A stretch of DNA of 64,000 nucleotides. Source: Dissulfurirhabdus thermomarina (GTDB taxonomy: Bacteria > Desulfobacterota > Dissulfuribacteria > Dissulfuribacterales > Dissulfurirhabdaceae). Numbering within the stretch: the first letter of the stretch is position 1; every line of letters starts with the position of its first letter. The position numbers and the translations under genes are program-made. The notes beneath the pieces were generated by a model. It was not told the DNA's origin and did no database searches. It saw nothing but the letters and a program-made list of their open reading frames with translations. Location of the stretch: NCBI RefSeq assembly GCF_012979235.1, contig NZ_JAATWC010000008.1, positions 1 through 64,000 of the forward strand, given 5' to 3'. Positions 5,078-25,856 of the stretch are shown piece by piece.

Positions 5078-6373
5078 TCAGCGGGCGCGGGGGCGCCGCC
5101 TGCCGCGGCCGTCCTTTCGGGCCCGGGGGGCGCCGCCTCGACCCTGCCCGCGTCCCCGCCCGCCTTCCGCGCGACGCGCCCGGGTGGTGCGCTCGGGCCG
5201 TTTCGGGGTGACGAGGAGGTCCGCCTCCACCGGGGCCACGGGGATCTTCTCCCCGATGTACTCCTCGATGTCGGGCAGGGAGAAGACGTACTGCTCGCAG
5301 GCGAGGCTGATGGCCTCGCCGCTGGCCCCGATGCGGCCGGTTCGCCCGATCCGGTGGACGTAGTCCTCGGCGTCCTGGGGGAGGTCGAAGTTGAAGACGT
5401 GGCTCACCTCGGGGATGTGGAGGCCCCGGGCCGCGACGTCGGTGGCCACCATGAGGGGGATCTCGCCGGCACTGAAGCGCTCGAGCAACCGCTGGCGCTT
5501 GTTCTGGGGGATGTCCCCGGAGAGGACGGCGGCCTCGTGCCCGTTGGCCCGGAGGTAGGCCCGCACCCGCTCCGCGGCCCGCTTGGTGTTGACGAAGATG
5601 AGGGCCCGAGTGGGCCGCGCCCGCCGGAGCAGCCCCAGGAGCAGCGGGATCTTCTCCTCCATGGCCACGTGGTAGAGGACCTGGCGGACCTGGTCCGCCG
5701 TCACGTGCTCCGCCTCCACCTTGACCACCTCGGGGCTGGCCAGGTGCTCGTAGGCCAGCTCCGTGACCCGGAGGGAGAGGGTGGCCGAGAACATCATGTT
5801 GAGGCGTTGCTCCGGGGGCGGGGTGCGGCGCAGGAGATAGCGGATGTCGGCGATGAAACCGAGGTCGAACATCCGGTCGGCCTCGTCGATCACCACCACC
5901 TGGACGTAGTCCAGCCGGTAGACCTTCTGTTTCAGGTAGTCGATGAGACGGCCCGGGGTCCCGATGACGACGTCGGTGCCATTCCTGAGCGTCTCCCGCT
6001 GCTGGTCGTAGCCCGTCCCCCCGTAGACCAGGGCCATCCGGAAGTCGGTGTACCGGCCCAGGGCCTCGGCGTCGCGGTGGATCTGGATGGCGAGCTCCCG
6101 GGTGGGGGCCAGGATGAGGGCCCGGGGGTGGCGCCCCTTCTCCGGGGGCAGGGGATGGCGGATGAGGTGCTGGAAGGTGGCGAGGAGGAAGGCGGCGGTC
6201 TTGCCGGTTCCGGTCTGGGCCTGGCCCGCCACCCCCCGCCCCGCCAGGGCGATGGGCAGGGCCTTGGCCTGGATGGGGGTGCAGTGGGTGAAGCCCGCGT
6301 CGTCCAGTGCCCGCAGGAGGATCGGCTCGAGGTCGAGGTCGGTGAAGGGGATGTCGGTGAGGTGCTGGTCCAT
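5078..6373 (-). CDS. rhlB: DEAD-box RNA helicase, RhlB-like
   Basis: The 431-residue protein carries the full DEAD-box set in order: the Q motif region FTHCTPIQ, motif I AQTGTGKT, Ia PTRELA, Ib TPGRLIDYL, motif II DEAD, motif III SAT, motif IV IFVNT, motif V ARGLHIP and motif [10 protein letters not shown]. The opening [17 protein letters not shown] and the [18 protein letters not shown] segment after DEAD resemble E. coli RhlB, an RNA-degradosome helicase. The last 50 residues are Arg/Gly-rich, a likely RNA-binding tail. It is probably cytoplasmic and ATP-dependent. The RhlB assignment over RhlE or SrmB is from motif similarity, so it is less sure than the family. Confidence 0.88.
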
Positions 6374-6455
6374 GGATCTCTGCCGCCGGGGCCGCCGGCC
6401 GGGCCACTATACCACACCGGGCCGCCGGGGCGCACCCGGGGGGGCGCGGCGGGTC

Positions 6456-7715
6456 CTAGAAGTACCACGCCGCGCGCAGCCAGGCGGCCTGGCCCGGGGC
6501 GGCGAGGGGCGCCCCGGGCCGCGGCCGCCAGCCCCCGAACTCCGTGCCGCCCGGGCCCACGGCCAGCGTGAGGCCGCCCGTCAAGACGAGGTCTTCCCGC
6601 CAGTCGTAGCGGAACCAGCCAAGGAGCAGGCCGCTGCCGTCGCCGAGGTTCCAGATGGCCGAGGGGAGGAGGTGGAAGAGCGGGGTCGCCTCCACGTCGA
6701 GCCCGGCGGCGAGGTAGTCGCGGCCCAGGGTGAAGGTCTCGCCCCGCTCCAGGCGCCCCGCCAGGGCGGGGTCTTGGGTGGCGGGCCGGACGTGGACCTG
6801 GCCGAGGCCGTCACGGTAGTACTCGGCGAAGCCGTGGACGTTCCGGCCCAGCCAGGTCCAGGAGCGGTCGAGGTTGGTCACCAGGGCGCCGGCGGTGGTG
6901 CCGCGGCGGAGCCGGGTCAGGGTGAAGGCCCCGCGCCAGACGGCCCCCCCGAGGGCCACGGCCCAGCCGGCCCCCGCCACGTCTTCCCCGTGGCGGCGGG
7001 CGTAGAGGAGGTCGACCCCGGCTCCTGCCAGGAACCCGTGGAACTTCAGGGCCAGGGTGCTCTCCCCTGCCTCGAGGTCGGCGCCGTCCGGGTCGCGGCG
7101 CGGGACGATCACGGCCTGGAGGTCGGCGCCGCCGGGAAGGAGCCACTGGGCGTAGGCCATGTCGTCGCCCGCCTTGTACTCCGTGTCCACCGCCGCCGGG
7201 GGAAAGGGGTTCACCAGGTCCATGGGGTGGAAGACGAGGCCCTCGCCCCAGGTCACGGCCTGGCGGCCGAGGCGGAGGACGAGGCGCTCGGCGGCGTAGC
7301 CCACGTAGAGCCGGTCCAGGCGATGGACCGCCGCCACGTGGTCGTCGCCCGTGAGGCGGCGGGTCAGGTCCACCGCCCGGCGCTCGTCCTCGGGCAGGAG
7401 CGCCCCGCCGGGCGGGGCGGACCCGGCCCGCGCCGCGGCCCGGGCGGCGGCGGGGGTGTCGCCCGCCAGCGCCAGCACCTCGTAGTGGACGGCCCACTCC
7501 CAGGGGCCGGACCGGGCCTCGGCCAGGAGGCGGAGGTCGCCGGAGAGGTCGGTGGGGTAGCGGTCGCCGAAGGCGGCCGCCAGGTCGTCCGGCCGGTGCC
7601 GGGCCTGGGCGGGCTGGAGCTTCAGGTAGCCGCCGATCCGGCCCTCGGCCCCCCGGGCCGCGGGCCCCGGGGCGAGGAGCCAGAGGGCCAGGAGCGCGGC
7701 CAGCCGGCGCTTCAT
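6456..7715 (-). CDS. Outer-membrane beta-barrel protein of a LolCDE-like operon
   Basis: The 419-residue product has a signal peptide (about residues 1-23, cut after ARGAEG). It ends in Trp-Tyr-Phe, the C-terminal aromatic signature recognised by the BAM complex. Alternating hydrophobic and polar segments with frequent Trp/Tyr run through the protein, as in alginate-porin or DUF1302-like barrels, and LRLGRQAVTWGEGLVFHPMD resembles the opening strand pair of such porins. The start ATG overlaps the stop of the ATPase gene by one base (TAATG), indicating translational coupling. It is the last gene of a five-gene operon with a LolA-like protein and two permeases, so it may be an outer-membrane acceptor or cargo partner. 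Confidence 0.65.
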   Translation of the reverse strand: MKRRLAALLALWLLAPGPAARGAEGRIGGYLKLQPAQARHRPDDLAAAFGDRYPTDLSGDLRLLAEARSGPWEWAVHYEVLALAGDTPAAARAAARAGSAPPGGALLPEDERRAVDLTRRLTGDDHVAAVHRLDRLYVGYAAERLVLRLGRQAVTWGEGLVFHPMDLVNPFPPAAVDTEYKAGDDMAYAQWLLPGGADLQAVIVPRRDPDGADLEAGESTLALKFHGFLAGAGVDLLYARRHGEDVAGAGWAVALGGAVWRGAFTLTRLRRGTTAGALVTNLDRSWTWLGRNVHGFAEYYRDGLGQVHVRPATQDPALAGRLERGETFTLGRDYLAAGLDVEATPLFHLLPSAIWNLGDGSGLLLGWFRYDWREDLVLTGGLTLAVGPGGTEFGGWRPRPGAPLAAPGQAAWLRAAWYF

Positions 7716-8404
7716 TACTCCACCCGCCGGTCCGCCACGATCCGCCCGTCGGTGAGGGTGACCAGCCGGCGCGCGTGCTCCATGACCCGCGGGTCGTGGG
7801 TGGCCACCACGAGGGTGACGCCCCGTTCCCGGTTCATCCGCTGGAGGAGGCGCATGAGGGCCTCGGCGGTGGCGGAGTCGAGGTTGGCCGTGGGCTCGTC
7901 GGCGAGGACCAGGTCCGGGTTGGTGACGATGGCCCGGGCCACGGCCACCCGCTGCTGCTGGCCGCCGGAGAGCTCGCCGGGGCGCCGGTCCTCGAGGCCG
8001 GAAAGGCCCACCTCGGCGAGGATCTCCGCCGCCCGCCGCCGGGCCTCGCGCCGGCCGACGCCCTGGAGCAGCATCACGAACTCCACGTTCTCGACGGCGG
8101 AGAGCACCGGGACCAGGTTGTAGGCCTGGAAGACGAAACCGATGTGCCGGAGGCGCATCTCCGCCAGCTCCGCCGGGCCCATGCGGTCGAGGCGGCGGCC
8201 CGCCACGGTGACCGTGCCGCCGGTGGGGCGGTCGAGGCCGCCCACGAGGTTGAGGAGCGTGGTCTTGCCGGAGCCCGACGGCCCCGAGAGGCAGAGGAAC
8301 TCGCCGGGGGCCACGTCGAGGTCCAGGCCGTCGAGGGCGGTCACCTCCACGGCGCCCTGGCGGTAGCGGCGGGTGAGCCCCCGGCACGAGACGGTGGCCG
8401 TCAT
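7715..8404 (-). CDS. ABC transporter ATPase, LolD/MacB type
   Basis: The 229-residue ATPase has Walker A GPSGSGKTT near residue 43, a Q-loop in VFQAYNLVPVLSAVENVEF, the signature LSGGQQQR, Walker B DLVLADEPT with the LDS D-loop, and the switch His in VVATHDPRV. The QAYNLVP stretch and the length place it in the LolD/FtsE/MacB group, which moves lipoproteins or works mechanically rather than importing solutes. The ATG start at 8404 overlaps the permease stop (ATGA). A longer upstream frame exists but runs into the permease. It should energise the two FtsX-type permeases encoded just upstream. Confidence 0.9.
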   Translation of the reverse strand: MTATVSCRGLTRRYRQGAVEVTALDGLDLDVAPGEFLCLSGPSGSGKTTLLNLVGGLDRPTGGTVTVAGRRLDRMGPAELAEMRLRHIGFVFQAYNLVPVLSAVENVEFVMLLQGVGRREARRRAAEILAEVGLSGLEDRRPGELSGGQQQRVAVARAIVTNPDLVLADEPTANLDSATAEALMRLLQRMNRERGVTLVVATHDPRVMEHARRLVTLTDGRIVADRRVE

Positions 8405-16782: not shown

Positions 16783-17370
16783 CTAGTCGAAGGCGACCCG
16801 GACGGGCCGGCGCACTTCCCGCTCCTCCACCTCGAAGGGCTGCGCCGGGCGGAAGCCCGCGGAGCCGCCCACCACGTTGTGGGGAAACTGCTCGAGGTAG
16901 GTGTTGTAGGTCATGACGGCGTCGTTGAAGGCCTGGCGGGCGAAGGCCACCTTGTTCTCGGTGGAGGACAGTTCCTCCATGAGCTGCCCCATGGTCTGGT
17001 TGGCCTTGAGGTCGGGGTAGTTCTCGGCCACGGCGAAGAGTCGGCCCAGGGAGGCGGTGAGGGCCGAGTCGGCGCCCATGAGGGAACGGACGGCCGCCGC
17101 GTCCTCGGGGCGGCGCGAGGCCGCCCGGCCCGCCGCAGCCGCCCGGTCCCGGGCCTGGATGACGGCCTCGAGGGTCTCCCGCTCGTGCTTCATATAGGCC
17201 TTGGCGGTCTCCACCAGGTTGGGGATGAGGTCGTAGCGGCGCTCGAGCTGCACGTCGATCTGGGCGAAGGCGTTCCGGAACCGGTTCCGAAGGGCCACCA
17301 GCCGGTTGTAGACGGCGACGGGGTAGGCCAGTGCGAGGAGCAGGAGCCCGAGGAACACGTAGTCGATCAT
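16783..17370 (-). CDS. lemA: LemA family membrane protein
   Basis: The 195-residue protein has one N-terminal transmembrane helix (about residues 3-22). Then comes a long helical hairpin with the LemA signature: NRFRNAFAQIDVQLERRYDL, IPNLVETAKAYMKHE, and a YNTYLEQFPHNVVGG end. The bulk is likely outside the cytoplasm, with the N-terminus short. I chose the ATG at 17370, which has AAGGA about nine bases upstream; another ATG three codons earlier is too close to that site. The gene is co-transcribed with the M48 protease, and an attenuator-like leader precedes it. Confidence 0.9.
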   Translation of the reverse strand: MIDYVFLGLLLLALAYPVAVYNRLVALRNRFRNAFAQIDVQLERRYDLIPNLVETAKAYMKHERETLEAVIQARDRAAAAGRAASRRPEDAAAVRSLMGADSALTASLGRLFAVAENYPDLKANQTMGQLMEELSSTENKVAFARQAFNDAVMTYNTYLEQFPHNVVGGSAGFRPAQPFEVEEREVRRPVRVAFD

Positions 17371-17502
17371 GGGAAGCATCCTTTCGGCCGTTTCGGCGGG
17401 GTCTCTCGTCCACCTTTCGGCACGGCGGCAACGGACCTTGAGGAGGAGGGGGACGAGGGGGCGGGGATGTGCCGGCTGCAGCACCGCCGCCGGGAGGCCG
17501 TC

Positions 17503-17585
17503 AAAAAAAAGCAGCCGGAATCCCGAAAGACGCCGGCTGCCCAGGGGAGGGAGGGGAGATGTCACCCGGAGGCAACCTCCGAGTT
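17503..17585 (-). promoter_or_regulatory. Attenuator-like leader with terminator hairpin before lemA
   Basis: Read on the minus strand, the region holds a perfect hairpin CGGAGG-TTG-CCTCCG (17567-17581). Further down is a stem GCAGCCGG...CCGGCTGC (17511-17540) followed by eight T (17503-17510), a textbook intrinsic terminator. It lies between a minus-strand promoter at 17593-17620 and the lemA start at 17370, so it would stop transcription of lemA and the protease unless overridden. I do not recognise a known riboswitch class. The terminator might instead end transcription from the upstream multicopper oxidase gene. Confidence 0.5.
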
Positions 17586-17592
17586 TAGAAAC

Positions 17593-17620
17593 AAAATAAT
17601 TCAATAAAGAATCTTGTCAA
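17593..17620 (-). promoter_or_regulatory. Sigma70-type promoter for the lemA-protease operon
   Basis: On the minus strand a perfect TTGACA (17615-17620) and TATTTT (17593-17598) are 16 bases apart within an AT-rich patch. Transcription would start near 17585, about 215 bases before lemA, and would run through the terminator-like hairpin. Confidence 0.6.
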
Positions 17621-17676: not shown

Positions 17677-19989
17677 TCAGAACCGGGCCTCCAGGCCGGC
17701 CCCGAACCCGTAATCCGAGTGCCACTCGCCCCTCAGGAACCACGACCGGCTCACCCGGTAGAGAAGGCCGGCCCGGCCCTCCCAGAAGTCGCGGGTGTCG
17801 TACTCGGCACCGCCGAAGAGTTCCAGCCGGGGCGTGAGGGGCAGGTGCCTGTCGAGGCTCACCCGGGCGCCCCCGTCGCTGTCCACCCAAGCCCGGGACT
17901 CGATGCCGAGGGGCAGGAGGTAGCGGAGGCCGAGGACGCCCCGCGTGTGGTCCGTCACCCGGCCGTCCCCGAGCATGTCCGCCCCGGCGAAGGCGGTGAA
18001 GAACCGGTCGAAGTAGCGGTCCCAGGTGAGGATGCCCTCCCATTCCACGGGTCCGACGTCCTGCCAGCCCACTTCCCACTCCGCGGTCACGATGTTGCGC
18101 GTGTTGGAGACGGTGACCGCCCCCTCGGTCATGTGGCTCATGACCGAGGCCCGGGCCCAGGCCAGCCAGGCGTCCCGCCGGAGCGCCCCCCGCAGTCCGG
18201 CCACCGCCGGGCCCGGCGGAAAACCCTCGTAGTGGACCACCCGCGCCATACCGCTCTTCATGTGGTAGAGCAGGTGGCAGTGGAAGAACCAGTCCCCGGT
18301 CTCGTCGGCGAGGAACTCGATGACCGTGGTGGACATGGGCGCCACGTCCACGGTGTGTTTCAGGGGGGCGCGGTCGCCCTGGCCGTTGAGCACCCGGAAG
18401 AAATGCCCGTGCAGGTGCATGGGATGGTGCATCATGGTCCGGTTGACCATGACGAAGCGGACGATCTCCCCCCGCCGGATCCGGATGGTGTCCTCCTCCG
18501 AGAGGGTCCGGCCGTTGAGGGTCCAGACGTAGCGCTCCATGTCCCCGTCCAGGGTCAAGCGGACGACACGGACGGGGTGCCCGGGCGGGGGCGCCGTCCG
18601 CCGGACGGCGCGCAGGCGGGGATAGGGAGGGCCGGGCCGCCGGGGGTCCATGCCGTCCACGGCGAGGGCCGCCGAGGCGGCCACGTCGGCGCCCAGCCAC
18701 CCGAAGTCCGTGTCGTGGCGCTCGACCAGGGGCGGCACGGCCCCGACCGGCCCTTCCGAGGCCCCGCCGCGGTGCATCCCCGGTTCCTCCGGCATTTTCA
18801 TGGCCCCGTGCCCGCCGTGGCGATCCATCTCCATGGCGCCCATGCGGCCCATCCCCGCCATCCCGGGCCGGTCGAACCGGCCGGCCGCGACGTCGCGGTC
18901 CGGCATGCCCATGGCACCCGCCGGGGTCAGGGCGAAGACGCGGGCCAGGTCCAGACCGCCCATCACCGCGTAGAGGTCGGGCCGGGGCACCGCGGGGGCC
19001 GGGTGTCGCGGTCCGGCCCCCAGCCACACCGAGGCCCGCCCCGAGCCGTCGTGGGCCGTGGCCCGCAGTTCGTAGGCCCCGCCGCCGGGCACCCGGACGC
19101 GCACGTCGTAGGTCTCCGCCACGGCGATGAGCAGGCGCTGCACCGGGACGGGCTCGACCTCCTGCCCGTCGGCGGCCACCACGGTGAGGGGGCCGCCGGC
19201 GAACTCGACGAGGAAGTACGTGGTGGCGGACCCGTTGATGATCCGGAGCCGGATCTCTTCCCCGGGGGCCGCCCGGAGGGTGGATTCGGGCCGGCCGTTG
19301 GCGAGGAAGCGGTCGTAGGCGACGTCGGCGATGTCCATGGGCGGCATCCGGAGCAGCTCGCGCCGGAAGAAGTCCCCCAGCCGCCCCGCCTTGGCGGCGC
19401 CGAGGAGGCTCTGCGCCGCCCCCTTCCGGAAGGCGTACCATTCGCTGCCGCGCTTGAGGGTCCGGAACACGGAGGCCGGGTCCTCGTCGGTCCAGTCGGA
19501 CAGGACGATCACGTGGTCCCGCTCCGGCCTGCTCGGGCGAGCGGGCCGGATGACGATCCCCCCGTAGACGCCGCTCTGCTCCTGCAGCTCGGAGTGGGAA
19601 TGGTACCAGTACGTCCCGCTCTGGCGGATGGGAAACTCGTAGGTGAAGGTGGCCCCGGGGGCGATGGGCGGGAAGCTCACGTACGGCACGCCGTCCATCC
19701 CGGGCGGCACGAGGACCCCGTGCCAGTGGATGGACGTCGGGACGTCCATAGCGTTGTGGACGCGGATCCGGGCCCGGTCACCCTCCCGGAAGGCCAGGAC
19801 GGGCCCCGGGATGGTCCCGTTGACGGTCATGCCGGTGGCCGGGCGGCCGGTGACGTTCACCGGCCCGCGGGCGATGGTGAGCTCGTAGGTGACCAGCGCC
19901 GCCCGGGCGGACCCGTTCCAGGGGGCCGGGATCCAGCCGAGGAGGGCGAGGAGGAGGGCGAAGGCGGACGCGCCGCCCCGCGGGCTCAT
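17677..19989 (-). CDS. Multicopper oxidase fused to a C-terminal outer-membrane beta-barrel
   Basis: The 770-residue precursor has a Sec-type signal peptide (cut near residue 30; no twin-Arg motif). The oxidase part carries all copper sites: HWH at 88-90, HSH at 130-132, HPMHLHGHFF from about 522, and HCHLLYHMKSGM from about 570. A Met/His-rich insert at roughly 380-420 is like the copper-binding insert of CopA. From about residue 605 to the end the sequence changes to alternating aromatic strands and finishes with LEARF, a typical barrel terminus like CopB. CopA and CopB are normally separate genes. The product may anchor a cuprous oxidase to the outer membrane. The start ATG overlaps the tautomerase stop (ATGA). 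Confidence 0.82.
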   Translation of the reverse strand: MSPRGGASAFALLLALLGWIPAPWNGSARAALVTYELTIARGPVNVTGRPATGMTVNGTIPGPVLAFREGDRARIRVHNAMDVPTSIHWHGVLVPPGMDGVPYVSFPPIAPGATFTYEFPIRQSGTYWYHSHSELQEQSGVYGGIVIRPARPSRPERDHVIVLSDWTDEDPASVFRTLKRGSEWYAFRKGAAQSLLGAAKAGRLGDFFRRELLRMPPMDIADVAYDRFLANGRPESTLRAAPGEEIRLRIINGSATTYFLVEFAGGPLTVVAADGQEVEPVPVQRLLIAVAETYDVRVRVPGGGAYELRATAHDGSGRASVWLGAGPRHPAPAVPRPDLYAVMGGLDLARVFALTPAGAMGMPDRDVAAGRFDRPGMAGMGRMGAMEMDRHGGHGAMKMPEEPGMHRGGASEGPVGAVPPLVERHDTDFGWLGADVAASAALAVDGMDPRRPGPPYPRLRAVRRTAPPPGHPVRVVRLTLDGDMERYVWTLNGRTLSEEDTIRIRRGEIVRFVMVNRTMMHHPMHLHGHFFRVLNGQGDRAPLKHTVDVAPMSTTVIEFLADETGDWFFHCHLLYHMKSGMARVVHYEGFPPGPAVAGLRGALRRDAWLAWARASVMSHMTEGAVTVSNTRNIVTAEWEVGWQDVGPVEWEGILTWDRYFDRFFTAFAGADMLGDGRVTDHTRGVLGLRYLLPLGIESRAWVDSDGGARVSLDRHLPLTPRLELFGGAEYDTRDFWEGRAGLLYRVSRSWFLRGEWHSDYGFGAGLEARF

Positions 19990-23275: not shown

Positions 23276-23311
23276 AAGGGTCTTGACCCTTCGTCGGATC
23301 GGTGCTAGCCA
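23276..23311 (+). promoter_or_regulatory. Promoter with overlapping inverted repeat before the multihaem cytochrome gene
   Basis: A -35-like TTGACC (23283-23288) and a weak -10 TAGCCA (23306-23311) are 17 bases apart. A perfect inverted repeat AAGGGTC-TT-GACCCTT (23276-23291) covers the -35 box, a good position for a repressor site. The leader to the ATG is about 110 bases. The rest of the 23130-23426 gap shows no gene. Confidence 0.4.
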
Positions 23312-23426
23312 AAAAACGAGGGAAGGGGGTCTTTGTTGGAGGATATACGCTTATTCACCCATTAATCGGCGCTCCGGCAGGGTACCCCCGCATCGGTTTT
23401 TCCTTTTCGAGGAGAGGAGGTGCCTC

Positions 23427-25856
23427 ATGAAACGCTGGAAGAAGTGGTGCGCCGTCACGGGATCGGCCCTCGTCGCAGTGGGCATCGGGGCGATTTCCGC
23501 CCCGGCCTGGACGCCGGTGCCGGTCAAGGAGGACCCGCTGGTCCGGATGCCGGGGACCCAGCCGCCGCCGGAAAACGCCGCCGACATCGAGGCCCCCACG
23601 CGGTGTCTCAACTGCCACGCCGGGTTCGACACCGCCGTGGAGCCGGGGTTCAACTGGAAGGGCTCCATGATGGCCCAGGCCGCCCTGGACTTCCTCTACT
23701 GGTCGTGTCTCACGGTGGCGGCCCAGGACTCCATCTGGGCGGTGGGCCGGCCCAACGCCACCGACATCTGCCTCCGGTGCCACATGCCCAAGGGCTGGCT
23801 CCAGGGGCGTTCCGATCCCACCAACGGCTCCGCCATGGTGGGGCACGACTTCGACGGGGTCCAGTGCGACTTCTGCCACAGCATGTTCGACCCCTTCGCC
23901 TCGGCCACCCACGACGGCAGCCGGGAGGGGGGCGACTGGCTGGGGTACTGGGACGAGACCAACCAGAGCGGGACCCCCTCCCAGCCGGCCGCCGACCTCA
24001 CGCTGGCCGAGGACCTCAGGCTCTCCCTCGGGATCCTGCTCTTCAACGGGGGGGCCTTCTACCAGGGGTCTCTGCCGCCGCCGGGCTACACCGAGAACGC
24101 CGCGGGGCAGTACTTCGTGGACGACACGCGGGACAAGCGGGCCTCCTTCGCCGACGCCAACGCCCGGCACCCCATCCTCTACAGCCGGTACCACAAGTCG
24201 CGCTACTTCTGTTCCACCTGCCACGACGTCTCCAACCCGGTGCTGGCGAACCTCGGGGCCGACCCGACCCAGCCGCTGCCCACGGAGACCGCCTCGGCCC
24301 ACACCTACTTCCACGTGGAGCGGACCTTCTCGGAGTTCATGCTCTCCGACTACGGCCGCCAGGGAGGCGCCCCGGGCATCGGGCCCTACGACCCGGCGGT
24401 CTTCGAGACATCGCGGCCCATGAACTACATCGCCGCCTGCCAGGACTGCCACATGCGCGACGGCGTGGGCCGGGCCTGCTCCCAGAACGGCGGCGTGGTG
24501 CGCCCCGCCGAGAGCGTGGAACACCCCAAGAGCGGGCAGCCCATCCATGACCTCACCGGCGGCAACGCCTGGGTCTCCTGGGTGCTGGCGAGCGCCGTCT
24601 CCGGGTCGCCCAACTACGACGCCTTCAACGCGGCCCTCCTGAACGCCTCCAACACCCCGGACCTCTTGACCATCGATCTCAACGCGGGGGTTGGGGTGGA
24701 CCCGGCGGCGCTGCTGGCCGGGGCGGACCGGGCCATGCAGCAGCTGCGCCTGGCGGCCGCCGTCCAGGGCGTCTCCTATGACCCCGCCACCGGGGCCCTC
24801 TCCTTCCGCATCCAGAACCAGACCGGCCACAAGTTGATCTCCGGCTTCCCGGAGGGGCGGCGGATGTTCGTCAACATCCGCGCCTACCAGGGCGGGAGCC
24901 TCGTCTACGAGGTGAACCCCTACGACGCCGCCGCCGGGACGCTCAAGGGCCTCCACTACACCTACGCCGATCCCGACGGAACGCTCCCCGCCCCGGCGCC
25001 GCTGGGACCCAACGAGGCCTACGTGGACGCCCTGGTCTACGAGCTGCACCCGTCGAGCAGCCTCACCGGCGAGGCCGAGTCGTTTCACTTCGCCCTGGCC
25101 ACCGGGCGCTACAAGGACAACCGGATCCCGCCCAAGGGCTTCCGCGTCGCCGAGGCGGCGGCCCGGCTCTGCCTGCCGGTGGACCACGGGCAGGACGCCC
25201 CGGGCCTCTACACGGCCGAGGAGTACGCGGGGGGCTACGACCAGGTCTCCCTGTCCATCCCCCCCGGCGCCGACTACGTGGAGATCACCCTCTACTACCA
25301 GACCACGAGCCGCGAGTACGTGGAGTTTCTCCGGGACGAGATCAAGGGCACCGCCACCACCCTCTCGAGCCCGACGCCCTCGGGTGAGCCCCAGGCCTAC
25401 GTGATCCAGACCGATCCCTTCTTCTCGAAGCTGGCCGCCTGGGGTGACACCATCTGGCGGCTCTGGAAGCACAACATGAACGTCACCACCGCCGCCCCCT
25501 TCGCCATGGCCGGCGCCGCATGGGGGACGCCCCCCGCCCCGGCCTGCGCCACGCCCGGGGCGCCGGTGGGCCTTACGGCCACGGGCGGCCGCAAGACCGT
25601 GGACCTGGCCTGGAGCGCCGGGGACCCGCCGCCCGACGGCGGCTACCGGGTCTACTACGACCAGGCCGGAAAGCTCCAGTTCCTCGCCGCCGTGGACGCG
25701 GCCACCACGAGCTACACCGACCGGGGCCTCCAGCGGACCACCGAGTACTGTTATGCGGTGACGGCCTGGAACGACTGCGACGGTGATGGCCTCTACACCG
25801 CCGGCGTCGACACGGAGAGCCCGCCGAGCGCCACCGCCTGCGCCACCACGCCGTGA
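23427..25856 (+). CDS. Pentahaem c-type cytochrome with C-terminal fibronectin type III domain
   Basis: The 809-residue precursor has a signal peptide (MKRWKKWCAVTGSALVAVGI, cut near residue 28). Five CxxCH haem-binding motifs follow: CLNCH, CLRCH, CDFCH, CSTCH and CQDCH, all in the first half (roughly residues 56-340). The middle region is beta-rich and without haem motifs. From about residue 712 a fibronectin type III-like domain (APVGLTATGGRKTVDLAWSA and DRGLQRTTEYCYAVTAWN) leads to the end. Placement is periplasmic or extracellular. Such cytochromes carry electrons in anaerobic respiration, but the partner is not known. GAGAGGAGG before the ATG fixes the start. A strong terminator follows. 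Confidence 0.85.
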   Translation: MKRWKKWCAVTGSALVAVGIGAISAPAWTPVPVKEDPLVRMPGTQPPPENAADIEAPTRCLNCHAGFDTAVEPGFNWKGSMMAQAALDFLYWSCLTVAAQDSIWAVGRPNATDICLRCHMPKGWLQGRSDPTNGSAMVGHDFDGVQCDFCHSMFDPFASATHDGSREGGDWLGYWDETNQSGTPSQPAADLTLAEDLRLSLGILLFNGGAFYQGSLPPPGYTENAAGQYFVDDTRDKRASFADANARHPILYSRYHKSRYFCSTCHDVSNPVLANLGADPTQPLPTETASAHTYFHVERTFSEFMLSDYGRQGGAPGIGPYDPAVFETSRPMNYIAACQDCHMRDGVGRACSQNGGVVRPAESVEHPKSGQPIHDLTGGNAWVSWVLASAVSGSPNYDAFNAALLNASNTPDLLTIDLNAGVGVDPAALLAGADRAMQQLRLAAAVQGVSYDPATGALSFRIQNQTGHKLISGFPEGRRMFVNIRAYQGGSLVYEVNPYDAAAGTLKGLHYTYADPDGTLPAPAPLGPNEAYVDALVYELHPSSSLTGEAESFHFALATGRYKDNRIPPKGFRVAEAAARLCLPVDHGQDAPGLYTAEEYAGGYDQVSLSIPPGADYVEITLYYQTTSREYVEFLRDEIKGTATTLSSPTPSGEPQAYVIQTDPFFSKLAAWGDTIWRLWKHNMNVTTAAPFAMAGAAWGTPPAPACATPGAPVGLTATGGRKTVDLAWSAGDPPPDGGYRVYYDQAGKLQFLAAVDAATTSYTDRGLQRTTEYCYAVTAWNDCDGDGLYTAGVDTESPPSATACATTP

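Follow-up and report, generated by a model that had tools for sequence, protein, structure and literature searches.

The locus described here raises the question of whether the multicopper oxidase and the outer-membrane barrel of copper resistance, CopA and CopB (PcoA and PcoB), can occur as one natural polypeptide, and of what such a protein would do. A sequence-only reading of the window (the whole stretch of 64,000 nucleotides from Dissulfurirhabdus thermomarina that was analyzed) had proposed that a single ORF joins the two, which it took to be separate in known copper-resistance operons. As a general pattern this separation stands, but there is an exception: fused PcoA-PcoB was reported for five Legionella species in one sentence of a 2012 study covering gamma-proteobacteria only (PMC3548706), and, compared by description, its architecture is the same as the one found here.

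The fusion ORF (Table 1) runs from an ATG at 19989 to a TGA at 17677 without an internal stop. Its start codon is well placed, as it overlaps the stop codon of a tautomerase-like gene in an ATGA, and because of this overlap the two genes are probably co-transcribed. The tautomerase-like gene looks out of place beside a copper gene, and it was not seen as a repeated neighbor of the fusions of relatives among the tabulated ORFs of at least 60 amino acids. We considered whether the gene is part of a local copper operon and rejected this, given that its neighbors encode the tautomerase and LemA/MamQ-like, M48-protease-like and PpiD-like chaperone proteins; the copper context discussed below therefore comes from the loci of relatives alone. 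The only NCBIfam match of the LemA-like protein (16783-17604), whose gene adjoins the M48-type protease gene, is the magnetosome protein MamQ, below the cut-off. Further along the window, a large multiheme-cytochrome-like ORF (23283-25856) carries several CxxCH motifs and an apparent C-terminal fibronectin-like repeat. Within its own genome, a search with the whole protein found no second copy of the fusion, and a PF05275 search found no separate CopB elsewhere.

Table 1. Features of the fusion gene and its upstream neighbor (positions in the window; residues of the 770-aa protein).
Feature	Position	Strand	Basis
Whole ORF, CopA-type multicopper oxidase and CopB-type outer-membrane barrel	17677..19989	-	770 aa, stop-free translation; no other match to the protein in its genome
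Sec-type signal peptide, residues 1-30 (ending in ...SARA, followed by A), no twin arginine	19900..19989	-	Sequence; comparison to 13 separate CopAs carrying Tat signals
Three-cupredoxin-domain multicopper oxidase, residues 31-586	18232..19899	-	Pfam PF07732, PF00394, PF07731; TIGR01480; invariant ligand columns
Met/His-rich insert within the oxidase, about residues 361-412	18754..18909	-	Sequence; model partly disordered
Short oxidase-barrel linker with one helix, residues 587-608	18166..18231	-	AlphaFold2 models; R..LY.D motif conserved
Predicted 12-stranded CopB/PcoB-like outer-membrane barrel, residues 609-770, terminal Phe, acid-rich polar face	17680..18165	-	AlphaFold2, Foldseek, PF05275, hhalign, dyad repeat
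4-oxalocrotonate tautomerase-like gene, 62 aa	19986..20174	-	Stop overlaps fusion start (ATGA, 19986-19989); NCBIfam DmpI/taut matches slightly below cut-off

For the oxidase half, the Pfam domains Cu-oxidase_3, Cu-oxidase and Cu-oxidase_2 cover residues 40-586. All four copper-ligand blocks that had been read from the sequence are indeed present (HWHG, WYHSH, HPMHLHGH and HCHLLYHxxxxM), and their His, Cys and Met residues are invariant in 76/76 aligned relatives. The ligands are H88, H90, H130, H132, H522, H525, H527, H570, C571, H572, H576 and M581. In other words, the three cupredoxin domains and the complete T1 and trinuclear ligand sets that characterize CopA/PcoA are all found, while the twin-arginine signal that also characterizes them is absent (no RR motif). 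The copper-resistance oxidase model TIGR01480 (NCBIfam) scores 459.8 bits over residues 14-586, narrowly under its curated cut-off of 478.95, and we therefore call this half “CopA-type” rather than a strict member of that family. The Met/His-rich insert region is modeled with low confidence in the full-length AlphaFold2 structure (pLDDT <50 at mature residues 356-393).

Behind the oxidase, about 163 in-frame residues with barrel-like strands and a terminal Phe had been noticed, resembling CopB; the barrel now delimited comprises 162 residues, and the resemblance was confirmed by structure match, by Pfam matches in relatives and by profile comparison. The AlphaFold modeling of the C-terminus that had been suggested as a check returned exactly 12 strands and one helix for the 185-residue tail (pLDDT 94), and the same barrel appeared in the model of the full-length mature protein (pLDDT 88, pTM 0.88). 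The best PDB match of the C-terminal domain found by Foldseek is PcoB itself (7pge; E 9.5e-7, TM 0.60, 16% identity over the structural alignment), ranking before designed barrels and KdgM porins. In its crystal structure, PcoB forms an antiparallel barrel of 12 strands with a strongly electronegative pore, and its N- and C-terminus both face the periplasm (PMC9210255). It shares the 12 strands and the acidic lumen with the fused barrel and is a separate protein. At the profile level, PF05275 (CopB) matches the tails of 20/76 relatives (best 3e-6), a comparison against a profile of 14 CopBs with hhalign gave E 1.5e-6 and a probability of 90, and a separate PF05275 search of the phylum retrieved a fused protein (L105). 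PF05275 gives no match at E < 1 to the C-terminus of the window protein, whose link to CopB rests on relatives, profiles and fold. Across the 12 strands, the alternation of polar and apolar residues amounts to 2.50 hydropathy units; shuffled sequences give 1.29 ± 0.28, with 0/1000 as high. The polar strand face carries about a twofold excess of acidic over basic columns (14.8 versus 7.0). After the last oxidase motif, separate CopAs stop within 2-13 residues, whereas complete fused proteins run about 175-198 residues further.

A joined ORF in one genome could reflect an assembly error or a frameshift that merges two genes, but nothing found speaks for this; exactly this sequence is known from one genome. 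A search for the same architecture elsewhere had also been proposed as a check. Scanning one genome per species revealed relatives at more than 560 loci. The best 80 were retained, and nearly all of these reach the query's last residue in one open frame, giving the single-ORF form in about 80 genomes. The exceptions are some loci cut by contig ends (e.g., L027 and L067) and one (L069:5872-8243) in which the ORF goes out of frame inside the barrel, after about query residue 702, by sequencing error or gene decay. Among 247 sampled genomes from the phylum of the window's organism, the barrel profile had 10 matches, every one of them within an open frame longer than 700 aa. The relatives, mostly from draft metagenome genomes with phyla as named in their records, belong to the Thermodesulfobacteriota, Nitrospirota, Nitrospinota, Verrucomicrobiota, Acidobacteriota, Omnitrophota, Elusimicrobiota, Ignavibacteriota and others. 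The fusion is also present on plasmids with circular records, from Hymenobacter, Spirosoma and Mucilaginibacter (Bacteroidota) and from Ilyobacter (Fusobacteriota), where it is annotated merely as “multicopper oxidase domain-containing protein” or “multicopper oxidase type 3”. These independent occurrences of the same in-frame junction in unrelated genomes, together with the separation of fused and separate forms into distinct clades, rule out an artefact for practical purposes. Judged from these relatives, the fusion is not peculiar to its own genome and forms a large, widespread clade.

Several relatives show variations on the theme. On the two Bacteroidota plasmids of Spirosoma and Mucilaginibacter (L121:4542-7295 and L122:4797-7637), the Met/His-rich stretches are far longer than in the window protein, lying at the N-terminus in Mucilaginibacter and within the oxidase in Spirosoma. 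One Verrucomicrobiaceae genome carries two fused oxidase-barrel genes in tandem (L080:3334-5379 and 5773-8223). In another locus (L044:119-2704), a cytochrome c domain (CTGCH) precedes oxidase and barrel in one ORF, making a three-part fusion; none of the other fused proteins scanned has a CxxCH motif.

To relate the fused proteins to separate CopAs, we built an unrooted tree of 55 oxidase domains, in which all 13 separate CopAs and all 42 fused oxidases fall on opposite sides of one branch with a support of 100/100. A single event would suffice for this set, and either fusion or fission fits the unrooted topology. Among 46 genomes of the window genome's order, the fused barrel was found in three (G000, G041 and G030, the last with its gene apparently split across two contigs), separate genes with CopB directly following CopA in eight, and both forms together in none; with counts of 3 and 8, we do not claim that the forms are mutually exclusive. 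The signal peptides, judged by presence of the motif, divide along the same line: a twin-arginine motif precedes the oxidase in 13/13 separate CopAs and is absent from 82/86 fused proteins, with the remaining four looking like chance RR pairs. The earlier suggestion of a Sec rather than a Tat signal was thus upheld for the window protein and extends to its fused relatives. This difference probably reflects the fact that Tat exports folded proteins, whereas a barrel has to arrive at the outer-membrane assembly machinery in unfolded form. We consider this Tat/Sec split the strongest new regularity of the analysis. In the open-access literature, we found no paper that describes a clade of such fusions spanning phyla or the accompanying contrast in Sec and Tat signals, and, beyond the sentence on Legionella, nothing relevant on PcoA-PcoB fusion.

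Taken as anatomy, the one ORF, the intact copper sites, the predicted CopB-type 12-strand barrel, the Sec-like signal and the one-clade architecture are strongly supported. With the CopA-CopB/PcoA-PcoB systems of Pseudomonas syringae, E. coli and Caulobacter, the fusion shares the oxidase type, the ligands, the Met-rich insert, the 12-strand barrel fold and the order of oxidase before barrel. It differs in being one polypeptide instead of two, in using Sec instead of Tat and in its shorter barrel; moreover, the disordered His/Met-rich N-terminus of CopB is missing, and the oxidase and a short helix stand in its place. The fusion is a widespread variant of the CopA-CopB system and not a new type of system.

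As for function, our preferred reading, to which we assign a probability of roughly 0.7 (0.72), is that of a natural CopA-CopB (PcoA-PcoB) fusion in which the barrel-tethered oxidase produces Cu(II) and the barrel exports it; here we infer the outer-membrane location, copper as the substrate, passage through the barrel, and export over import. The protein would be exported unfolded by Sec and its C-terminal 12-stranded barrel inserted in the outer membrane. Because a barrel with an even strand count has its two ends on the periplasmic side, the oxidase would be kept at the periplasmic mouth. P1B ATPases would pump Cu(I) into the periplasm, where the Met-rich insert would capture it; the tethered oxidase would convert Cu(I) to Cu(II) with O2 at the mouth of the barrel, and the Cu(II) would be handed directly into the acidic lumen and leave the cell. 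Exposure to O2 is plausible, as the organism's genome encodes a bd oxidase, and its supply may be limited, as no heme-copper oxidase was found there. The genome also encodes two copper ATPases, located elsewhere than the fusion. That the joined protein recurs in many unrelated phyla suggests that the two halves work in physical contact. In Caulobacter, PcoB stabilizes PcoA, and direct contact was proposed from this stability effect alone (PMC12509749). A more far-reaching version describes a widespread outer-membrane enzyme-channel, with oxidase and product channel in one molecule and Cu(II) passed on without periplasmic release; in it, fusion was accompanied by replacement of Tat by Sec export, so that the oxidase would acquire its copper in the periplasm, while the barrel is being inserted or thereafter. 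We give this version even odds.

The direction of transport is argued both ways for PcoB, as uptake in PMC9210255 and as efflux in PMC12509749. If the fused barrel instead admitted Cu2+, with the oxidase keeping it oxidized in the periplasm, this would agree with a study in which PcoB conducted Cu2+ in liposomes and was argued to be an importer (PMC9210255). However, among the best 80 of the more than 560 loci, a P1B-type ATPase gene (DKTGT plus CPC or CPH motifs) lies next to the fusion in 20/80, compared with about 0.7 expected from the copper ATPase density in the window's genome; two representative neighbor ATPases exceed the TIGR01511 copper cut-off, and a CusA-family pump gene also recurs. 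This association with exporting ATPases favors efflux, short of proof, and together with the efflux phenotype of PcoAB in Caulobacter (PMC12509749) it makes copper uptake appear quite unlikely. The same neighbors, along with the Met/His-rich insert, speak against a porin-oxidase that would serve metal oxidation or extracellular electron transfer with Fe(II) or other electron donors instead of copper resistance. PcoAB-type pairs have been proposed as porin-oxidase systems in iron oxidizers (PMC5566968), likewise coupling an oxidase to an outer-membrane barrel; in the portion of that paper considered here, they are encoded by two genes, with no fused form described. The cytochrome c domain of the three-part fusion and the multiheme-cytochrome-like ORF near the window gene would suit such a role, but the cytochrome fusion was found in one locus only, and we regard this explanation as improbable.

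Alternatively, the barrel could be a mere anchor that fixes the oxidase to the outer membrane and no longer conducts copper. With 162 residues, the fused barrel falls short of the 208-position CopB profile, and the PcoB pore pair D97-E207 is not evidently conserved, the position of E207 not being acidic in an alignment that is uncertain there. Of the second pair, E130-E223, E223 corresponds to tail residue E144 (72% Glu), in a register set after a conserved RL where the alignment is again uncertain. On the other hand, polar-face residues, mainly acidic ones, are strongly conserved, beyond the needs of a plain anchor (in numbering of the 185-residue tail: D146, 100%; D118, 96%; E66, 90%; E152, 88%; H172, 88%), and we consider a purely structural role unlikely compared with the exporting fusion.

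The Tat-to-Sec difference provides a clean test in nature of whether barrel proteins have to cross the inner membrane unfolded, as the rule says, and of whether this class of oxidases needs Tat for copper loading. The fusion further offers a single protein in which oxidation and Cu2+ flux can be measured together. Finally, a natural one-chain version that is conserved across phyla bears on whether PcoA and PcoB make contact and transfer copper between them, as it sets their stoichiometry at 1:1 and fixes the membrane side on which they meet.
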